Below, one piece after another: positions 2,422 through 34,206 of a stretch of DNA of 34,206 nucleotides. The DNA is from an uncultured Clostridiaceae bacterium (GTDB lineage: Bacteria > Bacillota > Clostridia > Clostridiales > Clostridiaceae), in assembly GCA_937976175.1 (NCBI GenBank), contig CALJTN010000282.1, positions 1 to 34,206 of the forward strand. Reading direction: 5' to 3'. A program made the position numbers and the translations under genes. The first letter of the stretch is position 1. Each line of letters opens with the position of its first letter. The notes under the pieces are model-generated. The model was not told where the DNA came from. It searched no databases and worked only from the letters and a program-made list of their open reading frames with translations.

Positions 2422-3890
2422 TATATGTCACCACATCTATATTTTTTTAGAGTAAACACCATACTTGTACCCTCTCCTTCAATACTATTAGCCCTAATAT
2501 TACCTCCATGCTCTTCAATAATTTTTTTTGCAATAGAAAGACCGAGTCCACTTCCACCTGTTGCAATATTTCTAGCTGGGTCAGCCCTATAAAATCTATC
2601 AAAAATATATGGAAGGGCTGATTTAGATATTCCCTGTCCATTGTCCCTAACTTCTATTATAACGCTACATTCATCCTGCGTTATAATAATATTTATTTCA
2701 CCATTTACCTTATCCATATATTTTACTGCATTTTCAATTATGTTTATAAATACTCTTTTAAGCTGTTGCACATCTGCAACCACATACAAGGGATCTGCAT
2801 GCGTCGGAAGACTATTTATTGTGATATTTTTTTCCAGTAAATGAAAATGAAGTTCTTCTATACAGTCCTCTACATACTGATGTACATTTACCCTAGCAAA
2901 ACTAAATGGAAACCTATGCAAATCTAATTTAGAATAGAAGAATAATTCATCAATTAGTTTATCAACATCAGAAGCCTTAGTATAAATGGTGTTTATATAT
3001 TTACTCATTTTTTCTGGAGTATCTGCAATGCCGTCTCTTATGCCTTCAACGTATCCTTTTATTGCTGTAATAGGTGTCTTTAAATCATGAGAAATATTAG
3101 AAATAAGTTCTTTCCTATTTTCTTCATATTGAAGCTGAACTTCTATAGATTCTTTCAGCCTTGCTCTCATTTCCTCAAAGGCAGTGCACACTTCTCCAAT
3201 TTCATCCTTTGAATTCGTTTTAATTTGAAAATCTAAATTTCCTTCCTTAATTTCATTAGCTGAAGCTTTTAATTTATATAGCGGTTTTATAATACCTCTA
3301 GCTACAATAAAGGTCAGTGTGCCGTTAGTTGCAATAAGTATTACTATTATGAATATACTTATTGTAATATGAAGCTTATTGAAGGCTCTTTTCAAAGGTT
3401 CTACATTAGTAGCTAAAAACACACTTCCGCTTCCTTTATCCGTAAAATAGAAGTCCTGCTGACTTAAAAACAATCCTATTTTGGTACCTCTGAAGGGAAC
3501 AGTAATGTTTTTTACATATTCCCCAAACTTAGGGAGATATTCATTTGAATTAAAGTCCAGTAGTGTGGGGCTAGAATATATTATTTGATTATTTTTTCTT
3601 ACTATGATCCCTGAATTTAACACCTCTAATTCTTGTTCTAAATCCTTTAAATATATTTCATTCTGAAAGTTCTCAGGATTCTGAATTGAAGTTAACTTAA
3701 TGGTTGAAAACAATTCTTCTCTCTCATCTACAGTTTTGCTAAAAGGATACATTTGAGTTTTAATGTCATAAGCCTTTTGAGCATCACTAAAGTAATAGAA
3801 TCCCGCTAGTAAGGCTACCATTACAGTTAAAATGATGGGTACAATAAGCATAGCAATATACGACAATATCAATCTTACTTTTATTGACAT
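2421..3890 (-). CDS. Sensor histidine kinase (HAMP, HisKA, HATPase_c)
   Basis: Two TM segments, H-box ISHDLKTPITAIKGY, N-box NIIENAVKY, G-boxes DNGQGIS and GGSGLGLSIAKKI; overlaps the response regulator start. Confidence 0.95.
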   Translation of the reverse strand: MSIKVRLILSYIAMLIVPIILTVMVALLAGFYYFSDAQKAYDIKTQMYPFSKTVDEREELFSTIKLTSIQNPENFQNEIYLKDLEQELEVLNSGIIVRKNNQIIYSSPTLLDFNSNEYLPKFGEYVKNITVPFRGTKIGLFLSQQDFYFTDKGSGSVFLATNVEPLKRAFNKLHITISIFIIVILIATNGTLTFIVARGIIKPLYKLKASANEIKEGNLDFQIKTNSKDEIGEVCTAFEEMRARLKESIEVQLQYEENRKELISNISHDLKTPITAIKGYVEGIRDGIADTPEKMSKYINTIYTKASDVDKLIDELFFYSKLDLHRFPFSFARVNVHQYVEDCIEELHFHLLEKNITINSLPTHADPLYVVADVQQLKRVFINIIENAVKYMDKVNGEINIIITQDECSVIIEVRDNGQGISKSALPYIFDRFYRADPARNIATGGSGLGLSIAKKIIEEHGGNIRANSIEGEGTSMVFTLKKYRCGDI

Positions 3891-3917
3891 ATTTACCTCC
3901 TTGTATCCCTCTTAATT

Positions 3918-5129
3918 TTATTCATATCTAAGGGCATCAATTGGATCAAGTTCAGCTGCTTTCTTAGCTGGGTATATACCAAAGAAAACACCTACTGCTG
4001 AAGAGAACAAAATAGAACCAATTATGGAAGCGCCAGATACTACTGGAGTTATCCCTGCAAAACTTCCTATTATTTCTGCCCCAACAATACCTAAAATCAT
4101 TCCAATTATGCCCCCTATTAAGGAAATAATAACTGACTCAATTAAAAATTGCATTAATATAATCTTAGTTGTTGCGCCTACTGCCTTTCTTATTCCTATC
4201 TCTCTTGTTCTCTCCGTAACTGATACAAGCATTATGTTCATGACACCAATACCCCCAACTAGTAGAGATATAGCCGCAACAGCGCTTATAAATGCTGTAA
4301 ATATTCCAAGCACACTGTTAATTTGTTCAAGCATTGATAGTGCATTTTCTGCTGAATAAATTTCCTTTCCTCTGTTATTGTGTCTTGACTCTAACATTTT
4401 TATTGTTCCATGTCCTACTGATTCACTATTATCTTGTGAATCTGCAACCACTGTCATGGAATTTATTTTAAGTTCACTAGACTGTAACGTACTTAAGAAG
4501 GTTACTGGTGCAGTTACTATAATTGGTCTACCCGAATTTCCTCCTCTACCAAAAGGAGAAGATATTCCTTTTTCCACACCAATAATAGTCATCTTTTTCA
4601 TTAAAGTACCCTGGCCTATCTTAATACTCTCACCTACCACATCTGAGTAACCAAATAAAGTAATTGCATCATTTTCGTCAAGTATTCCTACTGCTGTTCC
4701 TTGTTCATATTCCTTTTCGTTAAAATATCTTCCAAAGATAATCTCTGTATTATTTATATATACTAGATCCGGGGAGCCACCTCTCATATAAGCTTTTTTG
4801 CTGATTTTCTCAGAAAAAACAGTGCCTTGAAGTTGAAATGAAGGGCTCGCATATTTAATACTCTCAATCTTTTCTTTTATTTGTTTAACATCTACTAAGG
4901 TTATATAATCAGTTGACTGTGCATTTGCTCCACTTACTTTAACAGTAACAGATGCCGCTCCTAATTTTTCAAATTCACTTGTAATAGCTGATTGACCTCC
5001 TTGGCCAAGAGATACAATTGTTATAACTGAACTTATACCAATTATTATTCCAAGCATGGTAAGGAAAGCTCGCATTTTATTCGCCTTTATACTTTCCAAG
5101 GCTGTTTTTACACTTTCAAATATATTCAT
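3918..5129 (-). CDS. MacB/FtsX-type ABC transporter permease
   Basis: MNIFESVKTALESIKANKMRAFLTMLGIIIGISSVI; C-terminal TERTREIGIRKAVGA and GIYPAKKAAELDPIDALRYE. Confidence 0.93.
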   Translation of the reverse strand: MNIFESVKTALESIKANKMRAFLTMLGIIIGISSVITIVSLGQGGQSAITSEFEKLGAASVTVKVSGANAQSTDYITLVDVKQIKEKIESIKYASPSFQLQGTVFSEKISKKAYMRGGSPDLVYINNTEIIFGRYFNEKEYEQGTAVGILDENDAITLFGYSDVVGESIKIGQGTLMKKMTIIGVEKGISSPFGRGGNSGRPIIVTAPVTFLSTLQSSELKINSMTVVADSQDNSESVGHGTIKMLESRHNNRGKEIYSAENALSMLEQINSVLGIFTAFISAVAAISLLVGGIGVMNIMLVSVTERTREIGIRKAVGATTKIILMQFLIESVIISLIGGIIGMILGIVGAEIIGSFAGITPVVSGASIIGSILFSSAVGVFFGIYPAKKAAELDPIDALRYE

Positions 5130-14413: not shown

Positions 14414-14569
14414 TTAATTATATTTCCTCCAAACTTAGTTATTTAAGATTAATCTTTGGTTCTTTAACTGCTCTAATTTGTCTAATTATACTAAACATTG
14501 GCATTTAAGTCTATGTACAATTATAATATTTACAAGTTTTTTTATTCGAATATTAGCTATATATTTTAA

Positions 14570-14607
14570 TGCAACCGATTGCATATATTTGTGTAACATA
14601 TTATAAT
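14570..14607 (+). promoter_or_regulatory. LacI/MalR or CcpA-type operator overlapping -35 of the amylase promoter
   Basis: TGCAACCGATTGCA (14570-14583); -35 TTGCAT (14579-14584), 17-nt spacer, -10 TATAAT (14602-14607). Confidence 0.8.
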
Positions 14608-14632: not shown

Positions 14633-16126
14633 ATGAAAAAACTTTTTTTAATGCTTAGTTTTGTATCTATACTCATATTTGCAAGTGGTTGTAATCAAAA
14701 CTCAGCACTTCCTAATAAGGATGTAAGTATAAAAGAAAATGCTGTTAAAGATAATGAACCTTTAAGCACAGTAATAAAAGGAGATAGTAAATTTAGTAAT
14801 AAAGATTTAATTTATTTTATAATGACAGATCGTTTTTATAACGCAGATACATCAAATGATAACTTTGCTGATGTAGATAAAAATAATGCTAAAGCTTATC
14901 ATGGTGGCGATCTCCAAGGGGTAATAGATAAGTTAGATTATATAAAATCCCTAGGAACAACTGCCATTTGGATTACTCCTGTGGTGAAAAATGAATACGC
15001 TGGTTATCACGGTTACTGGACTGAAGATTTCTACGCAGTAGATCCTCATCTAGGTGATATGGCTACACTTAAAAAGCTTGTGAGTGAAGCTCACAAAAAA
15101 GATATGAAGGTTCTCCTTGACCACGTTGTTAATCACACTGGTTACAAATCTCCTTGGTTAACTGACAAAAGTAAAAAGGATTGGTTTCATCCTAAATTGG
15201 ATATTTCTAATTGGAATGATCAAAAACAAGTTGAAAATGGGTGGCTGGCAGGTCTTCCTGATTTAAACACCGAGAATGTTGAGGTGAGAAAATTCTTGCT
15301 AGACAATACCTTATGGTGGATTGAACAAACTGGTGTTGATGGAATGAGATTAGACACTGTAAGACATATTCCCATGGATTTTTGGCAGGAGTTCACTGAG
15401 ACAATTAAAGCTAAATATCCTAGTTTTTATTTCCTAGGGGAAGTATGGAATGAAAATTCTAGATACTTAGAGCAGTATCATAAGTTAGGACTCGATGGTT
15501 TAACTAACTACTCTATGTACAAGGGTATTCGTGAGTCTTTTACGAGATTTGGCAAGACTAATTCATTAATAAGCGCAATAAATCGTGAAGAGAGCTTTTC
15601 TTCTCCCGAACTTAACGGTATTTTCATTGATAATCATGATAATACAAGATTAATAACTCAAGGTGGAGAGCACGGCACAGAGTATTTAAAACAAGCCTTA
15701 AGCTTTATAATGACATACCCTTCCATACCTATTATATACTATGGAACTGAGATAGGCATGGAAGGTGGTGCTGATCCAGATAACAGGCGAGATATGGAGT
15801 GGAATAAGGTAGAAAAGAGTGATATTTTAACTTTTTATAAGAGCTTAGCTAATTTAAGAAGCACCAACCCTGCCATAGTGTCAGGAGACTTTAAATTATT
15901 AGACTATGATAATTACTTTATTTCCTACATGAGAGAAAAAGATAAGAAATCAGTTATAGTGGTAATGAATCTTCAAAACAAAGAAAAAAATGTTGTCATA
16001 AATATTCCAAATAAAACAAAAGAATTTACGGACTTATTAACTAGTAAAAAATTCAAGGCAAAGGATCAAAAATTAGAAATAATCCTTAAGCCATTAGATT
16101 TAATAATTCTTCAATCTAATGATTAA
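14633..16126 (+). CDS. GH13 alpha-amylase family lipoprotein
   Basis: Lipobox FASGCNQ; GH13 regions DHVVNHTG, GMRLDTVRHI, FLGEVWNE, IDNHDN. Confidence 0.95.
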   Translation: MKKLFLMLSFVSILIFASGCNQNSALPNKDVSIKENAVKDNEPLSTVIKGDSKFSNKDLIYFIMTDRFYNADTSNDNFADVDKNNAKAYHGGDLQGVIDKLDYIKSLGTTAIWITPVVKNEYAGYHGYWTEDFYAVDPHLGDMATLKKLVSEAHKKDMKVLLDHVVNHTGYKSPWLTDKSKKDWFHPKLDISNWNDQKQVENGWLAGLPDLNTENVEVRKFLLDNTLWWIEQTGVDGMRLDTVRHIPMDFWQEFTETIKAKYPSFYFLGEVWNENSRYLEQYHKLGLDGLTNYSMYKGIRESFTRFGKTNSLISAINREESFSSPELNGIFIDNHDNTRLITQGGEHGTEYLKQALSFIMTYPSIPIIYYGTEIGMEGGADPDNRRDMEWNKVEKSDILTFYKSLANLRSTNPAIVSGDFKLLDYDNYFISYMREKDKKSVIVVMNLQNKEKNVVINIPNKTKEFTDLLTSKKFKAKDQKLEIILKPLDLIILQSND

Positions 16127-16175: not shown

Positions 16176-16229
16176 GTAGATAAACATTAAAAAGACGACC
16201 AAAAGGTCGTCTTTTTAATGTTTATCTAC
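16176..16229. terminator. Bidirectional terminator between convergent amylase and pullulanase genes
   Basis: Perfect 25-bp inverted repeat GTAGATAAACATTAAAAAGACGACC-AAAA-GGTCGTCTTTTTAATGTTTATCTAC. Confidence 0.9.
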
Positions 16230-18111
16230 ATAATATATAGGTACAAATGGCAGGTACAGTTACCTCTTTTATAAAAGCTACAGCACCCTTATTTACACCT
16301 GTTTTATTTACTTCATATTCATTTGCTAAAACTCTCCACTGATTATCATCGGGCAAAACTACTTTTATTCCTTCTTTGTTAGAATTATGAATTATGATTA
16401 ATTTGCTGTAATCCTCTTTAAAGGAAGATGTTAATTCATAAGCTACAGAGTTACAAGGAGCTTCAAGGAAGGTTAAGGATTTTCTTACTTCAACCGCAGT
16501 GTCCAAGGTCATAACCTTTTGGCTCTTTCTCAAGGCAATTAAATTCTTAATGTATTCATAGGTTTCTCTGTATTTAGCTTTTCTACTCCAATTTATTTCA
16601 TTCACGGCGTCACCGGAATTATAACTATTATGGTTCCCTTGTTTAGTCCTTAATATTTCTGTTCCACCCTGAATAAAAGGTACTCCTTGAGAAGTAAGAA
16701 CTATAGATAAGGCAAGCCTATTCATTTTTTCTCTTTCTAAAGCAGTGTTATTAGAATTGCTTTTTTCAAATTTATCATTTAAGCACAAATTATCATGAGA
16801 GCTTACATAATTTATGGATTCTCCAGGTTCTTGTGTGAAATTATATATTTCATTGTCGTACATAATTCCACCAACAATGCCCTTTTTAATTTCTATCTCA
16901 AGGTTTAATGCACCATTTACAAATCCCGCGGAACTACCGTCATTATCCCCCTTTATTGCATTTCTTATATCGTCATTAAACACAGATATTTGCATACCCT
17001 TTTGACTACCTTTTCTTAGCTGCATAGAAGGTGGTAATGATGATGGTCCCCCAGTCCATGGTTCACCATAAATAATAATATTGGGATTAATAATCTTTGC
17101 TTGGGTTACTACTTCCTTCATAGTCTCAATATCATGAAGAGCCATTAAGTCAAATCTAAATCCATCTATCTTATATTCCTCTGCCCAAAACTTAACACTA
17201 TCTACTATAAACTTCCTCATCATTGGCTTCTCAGAAGCTGTTTCATTGCCACAACCAGAACCATTAGTGTAGTTACCTTCTTCATCCCTTCTATAATAAT
17301 ATCCTGGCACTAAGGTATCCATGGGTGAATTTCCTGTAGTAAAGGTATGATTATAGACAACATCCATAATTACGCTAATACCATTTTCGTGCAAGGTCTG
17401 AACCATAGTCTTAAACTCTTTGATTCTTACGGTGCCATCTAGAGAATCTGTAGCATAAGAGCCCTCTGGAACATTATATAAATAAGGGTCATATCCCCAA
17501 TTATATCCACCAACAGTTTCATCCACACTTGCAAAATCATAAACTGGTAATAAATGAACATGAGTTATCCCTAGATCTTTAAGATGATCAAGTCCTGTAG
17601 TAATGCCCTCAGGGGTTTTGGTGTTTTTCTCAGTGAAGGCTAAATATTTACCTTTATTTTTAATCCCTGAGTCTTCTGATACTGAAAAATCTCTAACATG
17701 CATTTCATAGATTACTGCCTCAGTTCTATTAATTACTAAAGGTTTGTTGTGATTTTCCCAATTGTCAGGATTTAGAGAATGGAAGTCAACAATCATTCCC
17801 CTCTTACCATTAGCACTAGCTCCTTTAGTGTAGATATCCGGTGTTTCCTTTTCTACTCCATTAAATACTACTAAATAGTTGTAGTATTTATTTTTAAAGT
17901 CGCCTTTAAGGGAAAGCCTCCAGACTCCTTTTTCACCTTTGGTCATTGCGTATTTTTGTCCTAAGTCATCTTGCGGAGTTTCGTACACTAACACTGAAAT
18001 TTGTTCTGCAGTAGGGGCCCAAACCTTAAATGTTGTATTATCCTTAGTGTAAACTGCACCTAAATCACTTCCATCATATATAAATTCTTGGTTTTCTGAC
18101 ATTTTATCCAT
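16222..18111 (-). CDS. Type I pullulanase-like GH13 enzyme
   Basis: CBM48-like N-terminus; YNWGYDP motif typical of type I pullulanase; DVVYNHT, GFRFDLMAL, YGEPWTGG, SSHDN. No signal peptide. Alternative start MSENQ a few codons in. Confidence 0.93.
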   Translation of the reverse strand: MDKMSENQEFIYDGSDLGAVYTKDNTTFKVWAPTAEQISVLVYETPQDDLGQKYAMTKGEKGVWRLSLKGDFKNKYYNYLVVFNGVEKETPDIYTKGASANGKRGMIVDFHSLNPDNWENHNKPLVINRTEAVIYEMHVRDFSVSEDSGIKNKGKYLAFTEKNTKTPEGITTGLDHLKDLGITHVHLLPVYDFASVDETVGGYNWGYDPYLYNVPEGSYATDSLDGTVRIKEFKTMVQTLHENGISVIMDVVYNHTFTTGNSPMDTLVPGYYYRRDEEGNYTNGSGCGNETASEKPMMRKFIVDSVKFWAEEYKIDGFRFDLMALHDIETMKEVVTQAKIINPNIIIYGEPWTGGPSSLPPSMQLRKGSQKGMQISVFNDDIRNAIKGDNDGSSAGFVNGALNLEIEIKKGIVGGIMYDNEIYNFTQEPGESINYVSSHDNLCLNDKFEKSNSNNTALEREKMNRLALSIVLTSQGVPFIQGGTEILRTKQGNHNSYNSGDAVNEINWSRKAKYRETYEYIKNLIALRKSQKVMTLDTAVEVRKSLTFLEAPCNSVAYELTSSFKEDYSKLIIIHNSNKEGIKVVLPDDNQWRVLANEYEVNKTGVNKGAVAFIKEVTVPAICTYILCR

Positions 18112-18168: not shown

Positions 18169-18182
18169 GACAAACGTTTGCA
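18169..18182. promoter_or_regulatory. Operator-like palindrome upstream of pullulanase
   Basis: GACAAACGTTTGCA (core CAAACGTTTG perfect palindrome), a variant of the operator at 14570 and 23019. Confidence 0.6.
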
Positions 18183-18239: not shown

Positions 18240-18267
18240 AAATAACTCTAGATGTCTAGAGTTATTT
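18240..18267 (-). terminator. Terminator at the 3' end of the LacI-family gene
   Basis: AAATAACTCTAGA-TG-TCTAGAGTTATTT perfect inverted repeat followed by TTTTTT on the minus strand. Confidence 0.8.
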
Positions 18268-19260
18268 AGTTGATTCTCTTTCAACCAACTTTGTATCAAT
18301 AATATAATTATTGATATATTCCTTTTCATTCTCTAACTTGTTTATTAACAGCTTGACTGCAAAATAACCTAACTCTTCAGAATTGACATCTACTGAAGAT
18401 AGTGGAGGATTTCTATAAGCAGCTAGTGGAGTGTTATTAAACCCAATAATAGAAATAGGCTTATCTGATATTTCAGCAATAGCTTTAGATGCACCAAAGG
18501 CAATTAAATCATCAGTGGTAACAACAGCCGTAGGATTAGATTTACTTAAGATTTTTTTCATAGCATCATAACCACTAATTTCTGTAAAGTCTGCTACTTC
18601 TATCATATTTCCATCTATTTTTACGCCTATATTCTCCATAGCTCTCTTGTAACCTTCTAATCTATTTATAGTTACATTAAGAGTAGGTGACCCTCCTATA
18701 AATGCAATTTTTCTTTCACCCTTTTGTATAAGGTAATTAACAACACTATACATGGCATGAAAGTTATCATTATCAACCCATAAAAGCCCTTCGGTACTTT
18801 CAGGTTTTCCTATTACTACGAAAGGATAATCTGCTTCTTTTAAATAGGCGATACATTTGTCATCCTTCCTTACCGTTGGCAAAATAATGCCATCAACCCT
18901 TCTACTATTTATTAAACTTGCTATGTACTCTACTTCTTGCTCTTCATTGCTACTGTAAGTATACATAATATAGTATCCCTTTTTTTGAGCGTAATGACTT
19001 ATGCCCCTCATAATTTGGATAAAAAAAGGATTAACAAATAAATCTTCATCAGTATTAGGTAAAATAAGACCTATGGTTTTAGTTGTTTTACTAACAAGGC
19101 TCCTAGCTATGGCATTAGGGTGGTAATCCACTTCCTTCATTGCCTTATAAACCTTTTTTTTAGTTGCATCACTAATTTTAGGATTATCTGCTATTACTCT
19201 TGAAACTGTTGAGGGAGATACATTCGCTAGTTTAGCGACTTCTCTTATAGTTACTGACAT
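18262..19260 (-). CDS. malR: LacI-family transcriptional regulator, probable maltose regulator
   Basis: HTH MSVTIREVAKLANVSPSTVSRVIADNPKISDATKKKV; periplasmic-binding-like effector domain; lies inside the maltose locus. Confidence 0.85.
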   Translation of the reverse strand: MSVTIREVAKLANVSPSTVSRVIADNPKISDATKKKVYKAMKEVDYHPNAIARSLVSKTTKTIGLILPNTDEDLFVNPFFIQIMRGISHYAQKKGYYIMYTYSSNEEQEVEYIASLINSRRVDGIILPTVRKDDKCIAYLKEADYPFVVIGKPESTEGLLWVDNDNFHAMYSVVNYLIQKGERKIAFIGGSPTLNVTINRLEGYKRAMENIGVKIDGNMIEVADFTEISGYDAMKKILSKSNPTAVVTTDDLIAFGASKAIAEISDKPISIIGFNNTPLAAYRNPPLSSVDVNSEELGYFAVKLLINKLENEKEYINNYIIDTKLVERESTK

Positions 19261-19413: not shown

Positions 19414-20319
19414 TTAACCTTTAGTAGCACCAGAGGATAATCCTTCTACAATATGCTTTTGCAGATATACAAACAGCAATGTAATTGGAATAGCAACTAG
19501 AATAGCTGCTGCTGCAAATCTTGTAAATTGAGTATTTTGTTGCTTTTGAACCCAGAAGAATAATCCCATAGCAAGTGTTTTCTTCTCTGCGCTTCTTAAT
19601 ATTATTTGAGGAAGTATAAAGTCAAACCAAGGTGCCATGAAATTTGTAAGTGCAACTAATGTAATTATGGGTCTTGCTAAAGGTAATATTACTTTTACAA
19701 AAATCGTCATATTAGAAGCTCCATCTATCTTTGCAGCTTCATCTAAGCTTCTTGGAATACCATCGAAAAATCCCTTACATAACCATGTGTTATATGGTAT
19801 CTGCCCCCCAGCGTACACAAGGATTAACCCCCAATGACTATTTAATAATCCTAACTTATTCAATAGAATATAAATAGCAGTCATAGCCAAGAATCCTGGG
19901 AACATTTGTAAAATCATCATAGCCATAAGTCCTTGTTTTCTACCTTTAAACTTAAATCTTGAAAAAGCATAGGCAGAAAGTGTTGTTAGCATAATTGACA
20001 AAAACATATTGATGGTGGCAATCTTTAATGTGTTTTTATACCATATTGGGAAATCTGTTTTTGTAAACAACTCTTTATAGTGAATTATCGTTGGATCTTT
20101 AGGCATTAATGATGAACTAAATATGTTTGTACCACTATTGAATGAAGATAAAACAATCCAAACTATGGGTGTCAATATTACTATACTTATAATCACTAAT
20201 ATAGCATATATTATGGTCCTTTGAATAAGCGTAGATAAGCTTACCTTTTGGTTTTTGCTTTTTACCGCTTTAGGTAAATTACTATTTTGTCTTTTGTTTT
20301 TTTCTGTATTTATATTCAT
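19414..20319 (-). CDS. malG: Maltose/maltodextrin ABC transporter permease, MalG-like
   Basis: EAAxxDGA motif (DEAAKIDGASNMTIFVKVILPLARP) and MalG-like C-terminus. Confidence 0.9.
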   Translation of the reverse strand: MNINTEKNKRQNSNLPKAVKSKNQKVSLSTLIQRTIIYAILVIISIVILTPIVWIVLSSFNSGTNIFSSSLMPKDPTIIHYKELFTKTDFPIWYKNTLKIATINMFLSIMLTTLSAYAFSRFKFKGRKQGLMAMMILQMFPGFLAMTAIYILLNKLGLLNSHWGLILVYAGGQIPYNTWLCKGFFDGIPRSLDEAAKIDGASNMTIFVKVILPLARPIITLVALTNFMAPWFDFILPQIILRSAEKKTLAMGLFFWVQKQQNTQFTRFAAAAILVAIPITLLFVYLQKHIVEGLSSGATKG

Positions 20320-21605
20320 TACATCATCTCCTCCTCTTTAAAAGATTTGGTTTTACTAAAGCTATATGCTGAAATGCTTGCAACAAAAATAAATAGAATA
20401 AGGGTGATTACAGATGCCATATGGAATTGATTCTGATCCTTTGTCATCTTATAAATCCAGGAGATTAAAATATCAGTATCTCCTGCATATTTTAACTTTC
20501 CATTAACTGGATTACCATCAGTCAATAAATAAATCATTGCAAAATTATTGAAATTATAAGCAAAAGACATTGTTAATAGTGGCATTGTTTGAAAAAGAAC
20601 TAGAGGCAAAGTAATCTTAGAGAATTGTTGCCACTTAGTTGCGCCATCAATTTCAGATGCTTCATATAAAGAGTTATCTATATTAGTAAGTACCCCTGAC
20701 ATAAGTGCCATAAAATAAGGTGCTCCTATCCAAACGGTTATTATCAAAACCATTATTTTCGCTAAAAGTGGGCTTGTAAAAAAAGGTATCTTTTCCATTC
20801 CTAAAGAACTAAGCACATTATTTACTGGACCAGGTCCACTAAAGGCCAATCTCATTACCAGTAATGAGATAAATGCTGGTATTGCATAAGGTAAAATAAA
20901 AATTGTCCTAAAAACCTTTTTGAACTTTATTCCCTTAGCATTAGTTATTAATGCTAAGAATAATCCAGCAAAAAAGTTGCAAGTAGTGCTTACTACAGCA
21001 AATATAATTGTCCAAAGTCCTACACGTACAAAAGTATTATTCCAGATCTTCAAGTTCACTAATTGCTTAAAATTGTTAATTCCTACCCAATCAACTAAAT
21101 TCCTAGGTGGTAGATAATTAGGGCTTGAAAAATTAGTAAAGGCCACAGCTACGGTGAACATAATAGGAAGCAGAATAAAAAAGGTAGTAAATAGAAATCC
21201 CGGTGTTATCATTATATGAGGAAAATACTTGTCCCAAGCATAGATTAAGAATTCCTTTGTGTTTAGTGGCTTAGTACCTTTTTCTATGGCTTCTCCTACT
21301 CGTTTTGCATCATAGATGTTAAAAATATATACTAAAATTATAAGACATAAAACAATAATGGCTATAAGACCTTCAATCATTAAGAAAATAGAGTGGTCTC
21401 CCGCTGCGATTCCCTTCACAAAGTATTGTGGAGTATCTCCAAGGGTAATAAGTCCCTTTATTGATGTTAAAAAATATGAATAATTAAATAAAGTGATTAT
21501 TCCTATAATTGAAAACACAATTCCTTTAAAAATTTCTTTATTAAATAACTGTCCGAGGCCCATAAAGAGCACAGAGAAAATAGTTGCTTTTTTTGATCTT
21601 TTCAT
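20319..21605 (-). CDS. malF: Maltose/maltodextrin ABC transporter permease, MalF-like
   Basis: EASEIDGATKWQQFSKITLPL motif; FAYNFNNFAMIYLLTDGNP typical of MalF; stop/start overlap with malG. Confidence 0.9.
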   Translation of the reverse strand: MKRSKKATIFSVLFMGLGQLFNKEIFKGIVFSIIGIITLFNYSYFLTSIKGLITLGDTPQYFVKGIAAGDHSIFLMIEGLIAIIVLCLIILVYIFNIYDAKRVGEAIEKGTKPLNTKEFLIYAWDKYFPHIMITPGFLFTTFFILLPIMFTVAVAFTNFSSPNYLPPRNLVDWVGINNFKQLVNLKIWNNTFVRVGLWTIIFAVVSTTCNFFAGLFLALITNAKGIKFKKVFRTIFILPYAIPAFISLLVMRLAFSGPGPVNNVLSSLGMEKIPFFTSPLLAKIMVLIITVWIGAPYFMALMSGVLTNIDNSLYEASEIDGATKWQQFSKITLPLVLFQTMPLLTMSFAYNFNNFAMIYLLTDGNPVNGKLKYAGDTDILISWIYKMTKDQNQFHMASVITLILFIFVASISAYSFSKTKSFKEEEMM

Positions 21606-21639
21606 TTATTGCCTCCTAAATTAGCTAGATTTTTTTAAA

Positions 21640-21675
21640 AATTTAGTCATTCGCTATATAGCAAATGACTAAATT
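21640..21675 (-). promoter_or_regulatory. Intercistronic hairpin between malE and malF
   Basis: AATTTAGTCATT-C-GCTATATAGC-A-AATGACTAAATT, followed on the minus strand by TTTTTAAAAAAA. Confidence 0.65.
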
Positions 21676-21695
21676 CTATTTACCACTAATTATAT

Positions 21696-22979
21696 TTATT
21701 TTTGAGCGGCTATTGCTTCTCTAACAGTCTTTGCTGCATTTTTTAATGCAGTTTCAGGAGATATTCCGTCGTTCCACATTGTTGAGAATGCTGCTCCGTA
21801 TGGCTCCCAAACAACTCCCATTTGTGGAATTGATGGCATTGGTACAGCGTATTGTGCTTGCTCTAAAAATGGTGCAACAAACTCATTATTTTTAATTGCA
21901 TCTGCATCCATTAGTGCTTTTACTGGTGGTATTTGCTTAGTTAGTTCAAATCTTTTTAGTAACATTTCATCAGATGTTGCAAAGCTAGCGAACAACTGAG
22001 CTGCTTTTGGATATTTTGAATAAGCACTAACAAATAATGTTCTTATTCCTGAAAAACTTGATTGTTGATCTCCATTTGTTAATTTAGGTAATGGTGCTAC
22101 AGCAAAATTAACTCCAGCTTCTGTTCTACCTTGTACTGCCCATGGTCCATTAATCATGGCTCCTATTTTTCCTTCGTCAAATAGACCTTCCATAATTTGA
22201 CCACTTGCATCTGCTGAGTTAACTGGTAAAATCTCTTTTAAAGCTATTAAGGATTTTGCTCCTTCAACTGCTCCTGTTGAATCAATACCTACATCATCCT
22301 TATTTGTTCCACCTTGTCCAAAAATGTAGCCACCGCCACCAGCTATAAAGCTATGAGAGAAATAAGCATTTCCGATATCCCACATAAAGGCATACTTGTT
22401 TGATTTTGCATTATTGAATGTCTTAGCTTTTGCTATTATTTCTTCATAAGATTTTGGTGCCTCTGGGAATATATCTTTATTATAGAATAATCCATAAGTT
22501 TCTATTGCTGTTGGGTATCCATAAACTTGTCCTTTAAATGATACTGCATCAGAAGCTGCTTGCATGTAGTCATTGGTAACCCTGTCTGCAAATAGAGTGT
22601 TTTCTATAATTAAACCTGATGCCACAAGTTCTCCAGTGTGATCATGTGGTGCAGCAAATACGTCAGCTCCTACTCCTGCAGGGCCATCTTGAGCTAATTT
22701 ACCTTTAGCATCAACAGGTCCTACTTCTTCGTATGTAACTTTTACTCCGTATTTCTTTTCAAATTCCTCAGTAACAAGTTTCATAAACTCGCCTTCTGGA
22801 CCTTGAGATTCCCATGCTACTAAAGTAGCTCCCTCTTCAGGTTTTAGTTCATCTTTTACTGTTTCTGAAACTTCTGGAGTTTTTTCAGTATCTTTGTTAG
22901 TAGTATTCTTAGTGCCACACGCTGCTAAAGATACCGTACATGTTAAAGCTAACAATAGACTTAATAATTTTCTTTTCAT
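21696..22979 (-). CDS. malE: Maltose/maltodextrin-binding lipoprotein, MalE-like
   Basis: Start revised to ATG 22979 (MKRKLLSLLLALTCTVSLAACG lipobox, AGGGGG RBS); MINGPWAV and PQMGVVWEPYGAAF typical of MalE-type binding proteins. Confidence 0.9.
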   Translation of the reverse strand: MKRKLLSLLLALTCTVSLAACGTKNTTNKDTEKTPEVSETVKDELKPEEGATLVAWESQGPEGEFMKLVTEEFEKKYGVKVTYEEVGPVDAKGKLAQDGPAGVGADVFAAPHDHTGELVASGLIIENTLFADRVTNDYMQAASDAVSFKGQVYGYPTAIETYGLFYNKDIFPEAPKSYEEIIAKAKTFNNAKSNKYAFMWDIGNAYFSHSFIAGGGGYIFGQGGTNKDDVGIDSTGAVEGAKSLIALKEILPVNSADASGQIMEGLFDEGKIGAMINGPWAVQGRTEAGVNFAVAPLPKLTNGDQQSSFSGIRTLFVSAYSKYPKAAQLFASFATSDEMLLKRFELTKQIPPVKALMDADAIKNNEFVAPFLEQAQYAVPMPSIPQMGVVWEPYGAAFSTMWNDGISPETALKNAAKTVREAIAAQK

Positions 22980-23018
22980 ATTCAATCCCCCTAAATTATT
23001 ATTAGTGCAAGATTCCCT

Positions 23019-23032
23019 TGCAACCGTTTGCA
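23019..23032. promoter_or_regulatory. Operator at the predicted malE start site
   Basis: TGCAACCGTTTGCA immediately downstream of the malE -10. Confidence 0.75.
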
Positions 23033-23039
23033 TGGTTTA

Positions 23040-23068
23040 ATTATAAACTGACTTTTTCAAATTGTCAA
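23040..23068 (-). promoter_or_regulatory. malE sigma-A promoter
   Basis: Minus strand TTGACA (23068-23063), 17-nt spacer, TATAAT (23045-23040): consensus match. Confidence 0.85.
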
Positions 23069-23128
23069 ACACTTTTTATAGTTAAATTTTATTTCTTTAA
23101 CTGTAAAAAAAGCTTTCATGTTTTACAG

Positions 23129-23165
23129 TGCAATCGGTTGCAAATACTTTCCACTTGATTATAAT
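23129..23165 (+). promoter_or_regulatory. Operator overlapping -35 of a promoter reading toward pgmB-GH65
   Basis: TGCAATCGGTTGCA (23129-23142); -35 TTGCAA (23138-23143), 16-nt spacer, -10 TATAAT (23160-23165). Confidence 0.7.
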
Positions 23166-23326
23166 ATCTTAGTTTCACTTCTGTCAATAAAAATATTGTG
23201 TCACTTTTATGATTTTTCTATTTCTTCTGCACTTCCCTTGTTGGAGCAAGGGGTTTAACCGAGGTACACTAATTTTTTTCTTGCCATCATATTTTCGCAT
23301 ATAAAAAAATAATAGAAATTATTTTG

Positions 23327-23365
23327 TGCAAACGCATTCACAAATACTTAAATTTATATTATTAT
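23327..23365 (+). promoter_or_regulatory. Possible second promoter toward pgmB with a degenerate cre/operator site
   Basis: TGCAAACGCATTCA fits TGNAANCGNNNNCA; TTCACA (23337-23342), 17-nt spacer, TATTAT (23360-23365). Confidence 0.45.
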
Positions 23366-23498
23366 ATTAGAATAGGACTTAAAATATTACGTTATATTTT
23401 AGTATTCATGAAATTATGGTTTTTAACCATGTATACCAGACTGTTAGGTAATGACTTTCATTGCTATAGTAGTTTACATAAAGATAAAGGAGGAAGCT

Positions 23499-24161
23499 AT
23501 GCATAATAACATTAAAGCAGTTATATTTGATTTAGATGGGGTATTAGTTGATACTGCCAAATATCATTATTTAGCATGGAAGAGGCTAGCACAGGAGCTG
23601 AATATTGAGTTTTCTATAGAAGATAATGAGAGATTAAAAGGTGTAAGCAGAATGCAGTCATTGGAAATCATACTGGAGATTGGCAATACTACATTAGATC
23701 CTGATAAAAAACATGAACTAGCTGAAAAAAAGAATATTTGGTATGTGGATTACATTTCTAAATTAACCCCAGAGGATATTTTACCTGGCGTTATAGGTTT
23801 TTTAGAAAGCACCAAGGCAAATGGTATAAAGGTTGCTTTAGGCTCTGCAAGTAAAAATTCTATGCTTATTCTTAATAAATTAAATTTAACGGATTATTTT
23901 CAAGCTATAATTGATGGTACAAAAGTAAGTAAAGCAAAACCCGATCCTGAAGTTTTCTTAAAAGGTGCTGAGGCACTTAATGTATCGCCTCATCAATGTA
24001 TTGTTTTTGAAGATGCAGAAGCAGGTGTGGAAGCTGCCATTAATGCAGGAATGTTCTGCATTGGAATTGGTTCTGAAAATATATTAAAAAAAGCTCATTT
24101 AGTGATTTCAGGATTTTCTAATATGACTTTTGATAAATTAAAACTACATGGAGCAAATTAG
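23499..24161 (+). CDS. pgmB: Beta-phosphoglucomutase (HAD superfamily)
   Basis: Start revised to ATG 23499 (AAGGAGGAAGCT RBS). VIFDLDGVLVDTAKYHYLAWKRL, LGSASKN, KPDPEVF, FEDAEAGVEAA. Confidence 0.94.
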   Translation: MHNNIKAVIFDLDGVLVDTAKYHYLAWKRLAQELNIEFSIEDNERLKGVSRMQSLEIILEIGNTTLDPDKKHELAEKKNIWYVDYISKLTPEDILPGVIGFLESTKANGIKVALGSASKNSMLILNKLNLTDYFQAIIDGTKVSKAKPDPEVFLKGAEALNVSPHQCIVFEDAEAGVEAAINAGMFCIGIGSENILKKAHLVISGFSNMTFDKLKLHGAN

Positions 24162-24204
24162 TTAATGGTTAATTTGTACTCCAGGAAATAACTAGGAGGT
24201 TTTT

Positions 24205-26514
24205 ATGAAACACTATTATAAATTAGACGAATGGAATATTATTGAAGAAGGCTTTAATGCTGATAACAATGAAATATCTGAGAGTATTTTCAGCTTAGGT
24301 AATGGATATATGGGACAAAGAGCAAATTTTGAAGAAGAATACAGTGGTTCAACTCTTCAAGGAAATTATATAGCTGGGGTTTACTACCCTGATAAAACCA
24401 GAGTTGGTTGGTGGAAAAATGGGTATCCAGAATATTTTGCTAAAGTTTTAAACTCAACAAACTGGATTGGCATAAACATTAAAGTTAATGATATCTCTTT
24501 AGATCTTGCTAAGTGTGCTGTAAAGGAATTCCAAAGAGTTTTGAACATGGAAGAAGGTTATTTACAGAGAAGTTTTAAGGCTGTACTCTCAAATGGTAAT
24601 GAGATTGAAGTAATGGCTAAAAGATTTATTAGCATGACACGTGGTGAAATAGGAGCAATTAAATATTCTATAAGACCACTAAATTTCAAGGGTAAATTAG
24701 AGATTTCTCCTTATCTTGATGGAGACGTCATGAATTCTGATTCTAACTATGATGAAAAGTTTTGGGATGAGATTTCCAAAGACGTTAAACCTTATGAAGC
24801 GTGCATGATGCTAAAAACGAAAAAATTGGATTTTCACATCTGTACGTATATGACCTATGAATTAACTAAAAACGGTGAAATAATTAGCCCTGCCGTGACA
24901 CTAGATAAAAGTGAAAAATATGTTGCCAGCACTGCTTTAGTGGATTGCAATGAAAATGATGAAGTTGTAATTTATAAATATGTTGCAAATACCTCATCTA
25001 GATATTATGAAATAGATAAACTTATTGAAAAAACTAAAAAACTTTGCACCAACGCCAAAGCGGATGGGTTTGAAGTATTATTAAAGGAACAAGCTCATGC
25101 TTGGAAGGAAAAGTGGAAAGAAAGCGATATAGTTATTGAAGGTGACGTTTCTGCACAACAAGGTATTCGATTTAATATATTCCAATTGAATCAGACATAT
25201 ACGGGAGACGATCACAGACTAAATATAGGACCAAAGGGGTTTACTGGTGAAAAATATGGTGGAAGCACCTACTGGGATACTGAAGCTTACTGCATTCCCT
25301 TTTATCTAAGTACTGCTGAGGAAAAAGTATCTAGAAACCTTTTATTATATAGGTACAAGCAGTTAGATAAAGCTATTGAAAATGCTGAAAAATTAGGCTT
25401 TACAAATGGAGCCGCTCTTTATCCAATGGTAACAATGAATGGTGAAGAATGCCACAATGAGTGGGAAATAACTTTTGAAGAAATCCATAGAAATGGTGCC
25501 ATAGCTTACGCTATATATAACTATGTAAATTATACTGGTGACAAGACTTGTCTAGGTGAATTTAGCTTTGAGGTGCTGGCTGCCATATCAAGATTTTGGG
25601 CTCAAAGAGCTACTTTTTCAAAAGATAAAAATAAATATGTGATTCTAGGCGTTACCGGACCTAATGAGTATGAAAATAATATAAATAATAACTGGTATAC
25701 AAATAAAATTGCCTGCTGGTCTTTAGAGTATACCCTTGAAGTTATAAATTACCTAAGTGAAAATGAACCTGAAAGATTAAATGAACTGAAGCAAAAACTT
25801 AATTTTAAAGATGATGAGATAATTACTTGGAAGAATGTCATTGAAAATATGTACTACCCATCTGATGAGGAACTTGGAATTTTCCTTCAACAAGATGGCT
25901 ATATGGACAAAGAGCAAACATTAGTTAAGGATCTAGATAAAAAACATTTGCCATTAAATCAAAACTGGTCATGGGATAGAATACTGCGCTCATGCTTTAT
26001 AAAACAAGCTGATGTACTTCAAGGTATTTACTTATTTGAACAGCAATATGATACTGATACAATTAAAAGGAATTTTGAATTCTACGAGCCTAGAACAGTA
26101 CATGAGTCTTCCTTATCCCCTTGCATTCACACCATTTTAGCTGGAAGAATTGGAGATCATGATAAAGCTTATGAAATGTACTTAAGGGCTTCTAGACTTG
26201 ACCTTGATAATTATAACAATGATACAAACGACGGCTGCCATACTACCAGTATGGCAGGAACCTGGATGGCAATTGTCCATGGTTTTGGAGGACTCAGAGT
26301 TGGTCAAGATAAATTAATTTTAAATCCGTTCATTCCGAAGCACTGGTGCTCATGCTCCTTTAAAATAATATATAGAGGTGCACTTCTAAATATTAAATTT
26401 ACAGCAAACACCCTTCAGATACAAAATGAGAATGACACAGTAGTTAAATTATTAGTTTATGAAAAAGATTACTGTTTAAATGGAACTGATTTATTAGAAA
26501 TTAAAATACTATAA
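24205..26514 (+). CDS. GH65 disaccharide phosphorylase, probably maltose phosphorylase
   Basis: LGNGYMGQRANFEE, GGSTYWDTEAYC, GVTGPNEYENNINNNWYTN catalytic region; adjacent to pgmB. Confidence 0.93.
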   Translation: MKHYYKLDEWNIIEEGFNADNNEISESIFSLGNGYMGQRANFEEEYSGSTLQGNYIAGVYYPDKTRVGWWKNGYPEYFAKVLNSTNWIGINIKVNDISLDLAKCAVKEFQRVLNMEEGYLQRSFKAVLSNGNEIEVMAKRFISMTRGEIGAIKYSIRPLNFKGKLEISPYLDGDVMNSDSNYDEKFWDEISKDVKPYEACMMLKTKKLDFHICTYMTYELTKNGEIISPAVTLDKSEKYVASTALVDCNENDEVVIYKYVANTSSRYYEIDKLIEKTKKLCTNAKADGFEVLLKEQAHAWKEKWKESDIVIEGDVSAQQGIRFNIFQLNQTYTGDDHRLNIGPKGFTGEKYGGSTYWDTEAYCIPFYLSTAEEKVSRNLLLYRYKQLDKAIENAEKLGFTNGAALYPMVTMNGEECHNEWEITFEEIHRNGAIAYAIYNYVNYTGDKTCLGEFSFEVLAAISRFWAQRATFSKDKNKYVILGVTGPNEYENNINNNWYTNKIACWSLEYTLEVINYLSENEPERLNELKQKLNFKDDEIITWKNVIENMYYPSDEELGIFLQQDGYMDKEQTLVKDLDKKHLPLNQNWSWDRILRSCFIKQADVLQGIYLFEQQYDTDTIKRNFEFYEPRTVHESSLSPCIHTILAGRIGDHDKAYEMYLRASRLDLDNYNNDTNDGCHTTSMAGTWMAIVHGFGGLRVGQDKLILNPFIPKHWCSCSFKIIYRGALLNIKFTANTLQIQNENDTVVKLLVYEKDYCLNGTDLLEIKIL

Positions 26515-32278: not shown

Positions 32279-34048
32279 TTAATTAGAGAGCTTGAATTTA
32301 TTAATCTGTTCGTTCATTTTAACCGCCATGTCATTCAATAGTTGTGATGAAGAGGAAACCTCATCAGCCGCTGCAGTCATTTCCTCTGAGGAGGCAGTTA
32401 TTTGTTGCGATAAATCTGAATTCTCTTTTGATACTAAATTTACCTTATCCACCTTTATAATTAGTTCATCTTGTTTAGAACTTAACCCTATTATCATTTC
32501 ATTAATATATCCAATCTTTGGTTGAATTTCTTCCACTGCACTTGCAATGTTATTAAAAGAATTAACAGTATTATCTACAACGTCATTTTGAACTTTTAAA
32601 TGACCATTTACTGTCTGTGTAATCTTCACTACATTGTCTGCGCCTAAGGAAATATCTTTTATTAAAATATTAATTTCTTTTGATGAGTCCTTAGACTGCT
32701 CAGCAAGTCCCCTTATTTCTTCAGCAACAATAGCAAATCCTCTTCCAGCATCACCTGCTCTTGCAGCTTCTATTGCTGCATTCAAGGCTAACAAATTAGT
32801 TTTATCTGATATAGTTTTAATCATATTTGTAATATTGTTTATTTGCTCAATCTTTTTACTTAAAATAAGGATTTCTTTATTAACATAGTTAAAAGAACTA
32901 TTTATACTGCCCATAGCTATCATCAAAGTTCCAAGTTCTTCTTTTCCTTTCTCTGCTATGTCCCCAGTTATTTTTGAGTCCTTTCCCAATGTTTCTATAT
33001 AGCACAAAATACTGGATATCTCCTGTCTTAATTTAATTATTGTTTCATCAATGTTTGACAAATTGCTACTTTGTGTTAAAGAGCCCACAGCAACATTCTC
33101 TATTGATACGGCAATTTGTTTTGAAGCTAAATTCATTTCCTGTGATACCTGGCTTAAACTAAAAGATTGTTCAACTATACAGTGGGAATTGTCTGTTACC
33201 AATTTTAGTATATTAGATACATTATCAATCATTTTAGCTAAGGATTTTTTCATCATGCCAAATTCATTAGAATCTTTAACATTTATTTTTCCTGTAAAAT
33301 CACCTTGTGAAACAGAATTTAATTCTTCTATTAATTCTTTAAGTGAATTTTTAATAATCTTTATAATACTAAAAGAAAGTAGGGCCAAGATAATAATTGC
33401 TGATATGTTTATAATATAAAGCATCTTTACACCGTCATTATATATTTTACTACTGTTTATTTTTAATTTTTCCGCAGCTAATTTATTGTACTTAATGAGG
33501 CCATCCGTTGAAGTAATTATATTTCTTTCTAGAGTAATAAGATTATTCTTTTCCATAGTTAAAGAATTATTACCTTCTTTTTTCTTAACTTTAATGGATT
33601 CCCACATTAACATGTAGTCACTATAATCTTTTTTTATTTTTTTTATGTATTCATTTTGATACTCGTCTTTATTTGAATTTTCATACTGTTCCAATGCCTT
33701 TTTTATATGCTCATTGTTAGACTTAATATCCTTTTCAAACTCATAATAAAATTGGCTTTCTGTACCTCTTGATACATTATAACGGATTGTTGAAAACTTA
33801 CTATGAATCTCTCCAATATTTATTATTGATACCAATTGATCACTATAAATTCTATCAGTATTATTGTTTACTTTTCTAACGGTTATTTGACCTATAACAC
33901 CAACTACACCTAAAAATATAACAGATAATATTAAAATAATGATAATCAAGTTAATTAACTTAACGCTGTGAGACTTTGCTTTACCTTTATTTTTCTGATT
34001 TTGGGGGTTTGTAAATTTCTCATCTCTAGTTTTCTTAGTTTTTTTCAT
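32279..34048 (-). CDS. Methyl-accepting chemotaxis protein (4-helix-bundle-type ectodomain, HAMP, signalling domain)
   Basis: Two TM segments; HAMP; signalling hairpin [46 protein letters not shown]. Confidence 0.95.
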
Positions 34049-34088: not shown

Positions 34089-34126
34089 ATTATACTAAAT
34101 AAAACACCAGTATGCAATCGGTTGCA
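34089..34126 (-). promoter_or_regulatory. MCP promoter with the same operator as the amylase
   Basis: Minus strand TGCAACCGATTGCA (34126-34113); -35 TTGCAT (34117-34112), 17-nt spacer, -10 TATAAT (34094-34089). Confidence 0.8.
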
Positions 34127-34206
34127 TTGTCATTTAGAGAATATTATAATTATTAGCATACGTTTTTTTTGCATTTATAGTGAAATTACAAAAAAAAAGA
34201 TAAAAA

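Follow-up and report, generated by a model that had tools for sequence, protein, structure and literature searches.

The window analysed here, i.e., the whole stretch of 34,206 nt, is the complete contig C282 of a draft genome of 3.38 Mb in 414 contigs, which is 94% complete. A methyl-accepting chemotaxis protein (MCP) of 589 aa is encoded close to its end, on the minus strand (32279-34048), with a membrane-anchored 4HB/TarH sensor, a HAMP domain and an MCP signalling domain (Pfam PF12729, PF02203, PF00672 and PF00015, the last one matched at 7.5e-36). Only 158 bp of contig lie upstream of the MCP start codon. The window also contains an alpha-amylase / cyclomaltodextrinase-like lipoprotein gene (14633-16126, plus strand, PF00128), a pullulanase gene (pulA, 16222-18111), the gene of MalR, a LacI-family repressor of maltodextrin genes (18262-19260, minus strand, PF00356 and PF13377/PF00532 above cut-off), the malE-malF-malG genes of a maltodextrin ABC transporter (19414-23033, minus strand; the hits of malE to PRK09474 and of malG to PRK10998 fall short of the curated cut-offs) and a beta-phosphoglucomutase (bPGM) gene together with a GH65 glycoside phosphorylase-family gene (23451-26514). 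The MCP and the sugar genes are set apart by unrelated ORFs, as stated in the initial annotation.

The 18-mer AATGCAACCGATTGCATA is found exactly at 14568-14585 (plus strand), in the amylase promoter, and at 34111-34128 (minus strand), in the MCP promoter. The identity of the two promoters over 18 nt, claimed previously, is thus exact, and only the amylase coordinates given with it (14569-14586) were one base off. When up to three mismatches are allowed, the window contains 2 matches to AATGCAACCGATTGCATA vs. 0.02 expected from dinucleotide shuffles, and about 8e-7 copies are expected under an order-2 Markov model. Chance similarity of the MCP site is ruled out by both calculations (far below 1 in 1000).

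In the MCP promoter (34089-34117, minus strand) the -35 box TTGCAT (34117-34112) lies inside the operator and is followed by a 17-nt spacer and the -10 box TATAAT (34094-34089). In the amylase promoter the same elements are TTGCAT (14579-14584), 17 nt and TATAAT (14602-14607). The arrangement described earlier for both promoters, i.e., a palindrome over the -35 at 17 nt from TATAAT, can be read directly in the sequence. One operator half serves likewise as the -35 of the alpha-glucan phosphorylase gene (glgP; site at C337:3198, ORF 3334-4953, PF00343), again with 17 nt to TATAAT, and this is kept at glgP in nine relatives. The geometry thus looks selected, since it is found at glgP both here and in these relatives.

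The draft genome contains 6 perfect TGCAANCGNTTGCA sites vs. about 0.09 expected (order-2 Markov model): malE has two of them, and the amylase, the MCP, glgP and a truncated exported protein on another contig (C82) have one apiece. Among these targets only the MCP is not clearly an alpha-glucan gene. The site on C82 (C82:117) is directed toward the end of its contig; next come a Shine-Dalgarno sequence, an ATG and a signal-peptide ORF, the start of which, MRKLKKITSLVLAFLFLITILP, resembles secreted amylase-type proteins carrying the site in relatives. This site lies downstream of an MCP and was considered as an MCP site; it was rejected, being oriented away from that MCP and toward the exported protein. 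Besides flagellin genes, the genome carries about 30 MCP genes; about 2e-4 perfect sites are expected by chance within 200 bp upstream of 30 MCPs, and no convincing operator was seen in the flanks examined of the other MCPs.

The two perfect sites of malE (both minus strand) are located directly downstream of the -10 of the malE-proximal promoter (23019-23032) and downstream of the -10 of the distal one (23129-23142), a placement that contrasts with the -35 overlap at glgP. malE apparently has two tandem promoters, each with TTGACA and TATAAT (23019-23192), and a perfect operator occurs within about 15 nt after each. Weak sites with 2 mismatches precede pulA (18169-18182, minus strand) and the bPGM-GH65 genes (23327-23340, plus strand); the latter has a nearly identical 16-mer at the same place in seven relatives. 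A one-mismatch site lies ahead of a second sugar ABC transporter (C116:7343). Another MalR-like site with one mismatch is found within the gene of an AraC-type regulator that lies ahead of a GH13 gene (L022:533-546, L164:10636); it is kept in a relative and may act from within the coding sequence.

The repressor associated with the operator

Five LacI-type DNA-binding domains are encoded in the draft genome. MalR orthologs, 85-92% identical, are present in 14 of the 16 other genomes of the genus and mostly adjoin mal genes, i.e., malEFG, pulA, bPGM or GH65; in other genera malR is also encoded with maltose genes. Among 98 genomes of the family, a MalR ortholog is found in 29 of the 35 with a perfect operator vs. 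18 of the 63 without (Fisher p = 2.3e-7, a value that overstates independence, the genomes being related). The perfect sites of other family genomes are mostly ahead of GH65, amylase, pullulanase, sugar-binding-protein, glgP or malQ genes. Since the sites track MalR orthologs and sit mostly before starch and maltodextrin genes, the palindrome family is assigned, on these comparative grounds, to MalR and not to the clostridial cre type.

The MalR proteins of S. pneumoniae and other Firmicutes, also of the LacI family, have a near-identical operator core, (C/T/G)GCAAACG(T/C)TTGC(G/A), and the same kinds of targets as here, i.e., ABC transporter, amylase, pullulanase and phosphorylase (PMC4451989, PMC3616900, PMC4052901). 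The passages searched report no chemoreceptor in these regulons. In S. pneumoniae, mutation established CGCAAACGTTTGCG and GGCAAACGCTTGCA as MalR operators, since repression was relieved when the sites were altered (PMC4451989). In Caldicellulosiruptor bescii, malEFG, glgP, amylases and a pullulanase are under MalR, as proposed here, through a palindrome that resembles the motifs of other MalR proteins; the word chemotaxis is absent from the main text of that paper (PMC8579813).

The receptor and mal-linked chemoreceptors of relatives

The first 250 residues of the MCP are modelled as a four-helix bundle (mean pLDDT 83). The nearest fold found by Foldseek is the amino-acid receptor Vc1313 (TM 0.79 by target, E 0.006); Tsr, Tar and MCP2201 are weaker matches, and LytS bound to the xylose-binding protein XylFII is weaker still. 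The LytS-XylFII complex is an example of a binding protein docked on a four-helix bundle, but has no specific bearing on this MCP. A search of PDB sequences with the sensor returned nothing useful and Foldseek only generic four-helix receptors, with E above 0.005. The modelled sensor thus gives no clue, by sequence or by predicted fold, to its ligand. Tar of E. coli is a four-helix-bundle chemoreceptor in an organism with the maltodextrin-binding protein MalE. The present organism is comparable in having both a four-helix-bundle receptor and a maltodextrin-binding protein; however, the match of the sensor model to the Tar fold is weak (E about 0.1-0.3) and the model gives no support to MalE docking.

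Neither 40 relatives nor one scan of the genome-contig collection yielded an ortholog of the MCP with more than 36% identity, and the gene upstream of ygiQ differs among relatives. Nevertheless, other chemoreceptors are linked to mal genes in the family. In five Clostridiaceae genomes of three genera, dCache chemoreceptors of about 710-720 aa, unrelated to the MCP of the window, are located under MalR operators or in mal/GH13 operons (L165:9722-11878, L259:10186-12315, L258:6045-8207, L260:7629-9791 and L261:6208-8370). In one genome (G003), a dCache MCP of 718 aa lies 16 bp behind a GH13 gene, the promoter of which has a one-mismatch MalR site. In another genus (G071), the dCache homolog follows malR, GH13, malE, malF, malG and GH13 in the same direction. 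In the third genus (G045, G086 and G110), the homolog is apart from the mal genes and is preceded by TGCAAACGATTGCC, an operator with one mismatch located about 20 nt before the start codon, just before the RBS. TGCAAACGATTGCC is unchanged in these three genomes while some adjacent bases vary; this is modest evidence, because the flanking DNA is also well conserved. The other dCache homologs examined have no mal link, so on sequence comparison the association of chemoreceptors with mal genes is a recurrent option and not a rule.

A different pair, i.e., a FIST protein and a soluble MCP of 329 aa, lies between malR and malEFG in three genomes (G001, G004 and G010; L160:7250-9287, L161:10354-12391 and L162:10397-12434). 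No operator was seen before the FIST gene in these three genomes, and the link is thus one of neighbourhood only. The same combination of a FIST-like protein with a soluble MCP is also present in four genomes from other genera.

Competing explanations

According to the initial annotation, the palindrome also fits a cre consensus and the common regulator could be the LacI protein (18262-19260) and/or CcpA. If the site were a cre box, CcpA would repress the MCP within general catabolite control. The MCP site indeed resembles a cre core, and LacI-family operators overlap: CcpA of S. pneumoniae acts also on malXCD and pulA (PMC4451989). The fit to cre does not hold on comparison by hand with the clostridial consensus sequences, the best alignment having 3 mismatches to that of C. 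acetobutylicum, WTGWAAACGWTWWCAW (PMC3507653), and 5 to that of C. difficile, RRGAAAANGTTTTCWW (PMC3510511). Both lack the C and G at the diagnostic positions of TGCAA/TTGCA. Moreover, the perfect targets are alpha-glucan genes and not a broad catabolite regulon, and, while the ccpA-like protein of relatives scores 345 bits to TIGR01481, this draft, which is only 94% complete, yielded no match above 230 bits and no clear CcpA. Control by CcpA through a cre box is therefore very unlikely. MalR is a much better candidate, because of the co-occurrence of operator and MalR, the core resembling that of S. pneumoniae, the mismatches to cre and the lack of a comparable CcpA match; CcpA may add control. 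The LacI half of the earlier proposal is thus the one retained, being supported by the regulon, the co-occurrence, the -35 architecture and the mal-linked chemoreceptors of relatives, and MalR is likely the common regulator of the maltodextrin genes and the MCP.

Two further explanations concern the purpose of the site and the signal of the receptor. The operator is shared with a candidate divergent promoter on the plus strand (34122-34150), made of TTGCAT (34122-34127), 17 nt and TATAAT (34145-34150), and the site could serve mainly an alpha-glucan gene beyond the contig end, the MCP being repressed only via the shared site. The fit to TTGCAT-17-TATAAT is equally good for the rightward and the leftward half, only 56 bp of contig remain after the rightward -10, and all other perfect sites of the genome serve alpha-glucan genes (by resemblance for the C82 target). 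These 56 bp contain no RBS with a start codon of an open frame, and no contig continuing past 34206 was found among the loci of the same genome that were examined. However, the MCP promoter has the operator, -35 and spacer architecture of the amylase and glgP promoters and would be blocked too, and the rightward -10 may be fortuitous because ATTATAAT is its own reverse complement. A divergent MalR-controlled gene past the contig end is a serious possibility; it could largely explain why the site exists, and would leave MalR control of the MCP in place. That the operator mainly serves such a gene is nevertheless held to be unlikely. The other explanation is that the MCP senses something unrelated to alpha-glucans, e.g., amino acids, and that the role of MalR is limited to matching MCP production to growth on starch. 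It is compatible with a MalR operator at the MCP and bears only on what is sensed. In its favour, the sensor is a generic four-helix bundle with the amino-acid-binding receptors Vc1313 and Tsr/Tar as nearest folds, and the mal-linked MCPs of relatives carry unrelated sensors (dCache, or soluble with FIST). The contrary argument is an indirect one: specific co-regulation usually points to a related signal, as inferred for mcpNag of Shewanella (PMC3223726). An unrelated signal is a real possibility, somewhat short of an even chance.

Proposed regulation and its significance

The preferred explanation is that 34111-34128 is a MalR operator, by which the MCP would be blocked without maltodextrin and made with the uptake and degradation proteins when it is present; it is considered quite probable. 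The site, its architecture, the make-up of the regulon and the association with MalR across genomes are shown here, and binding of MalR, repression and induction are inferred. In the absence of maltodextrin, a MalR dimer on the -35 box would block RNA polymerase at the MCP promoter, and the amylase and glgP promoters would be blocked in the same manner. Maltose or maltodextrin entering the cell would release MalR, the MCP would then be produced alongside the uptake and degradation proteins, and the induced MCP would alter the composition of a chemoreceptor array for which about 30 receptor genes are available. The regulatory half of the proposal, i.e., control of the MCP by MalR, is well supported by the comparisons above. 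Since the MCP promoter carries the putative MalR operator and several relatives couple other, unrelated chemoreceptors to the sugar system, the set of attractants that cells can follow probably shifts in the presence of maltodextrins. That the MCP helps cells to find alpha-glucans is a guess, and the earlier suggestion that it might sense maltodextrin or liganded MalE, by analogy with Tar and MalE, is a conjecture.

A broader proposal is more tentative and, taken as a whole, rather improbable: the MalR regulon of Clostridiaceae would have repeatedly recruited unrelated chemoreceptors (4HB here, dCache in five genomes and possibly the soluble MCP with FIST in three), the array would be rebuilt on alpha-glucan induction, and the MCP of the window would detect maltodextrin directly or via the lipoprotein MalE. 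This would amount to substrate-induced chemotaxis to starch breakdown products.

Streptococci, in which MalR operators have been studied, are non-motile. The closest precedent is found in Shewanella oneidensis, where NagR, the LacI-family regulator of the chitin and GlcNAc genes, directly represses mcpNag, as established by EMSA and by a 16-fold derepression in a nagR mutant (PMC3223726). Both systems have a sugar-specific LacI-family repressor on a chemoreceptor and on catabolic genes, here at the level of sequence. They differ in that NagR-mcpNag belongs to a gammaproteobacterium and to N-acetylglucosamine, whereas a clostridial MalR and alpha-glucans are concerned here, and in that several unrelated receptor types are here coupled to one regulator in different relatives. 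The MalR regulon on the one hand, and a chemoreceptor controlled by a repressor on the other, are thus already established (PMC4451989, PMC3616900, PMC4052901, PMC8579813, PMC3223726). No MalR-controlled chemoreceptor was found in the literature passages and term searches, the scope of which leaves out many subscription papers.

The recurrence of unrelated receptors under the MalR system is the more interesting part. For most of the numerous clostridial chemoreceptors no signal is known, as far as we are aware. When a receptor gene and a single sugar pathway have a specific operator in common, a ligand hypothesis follows that can be tested, and with the link recurring in relatives, several independent receptors are available for this. 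If true, chemotaxis controlled by a repressor would extend from the chitin sugars of Shewanella to starch use in Gram-positive anaerobes.
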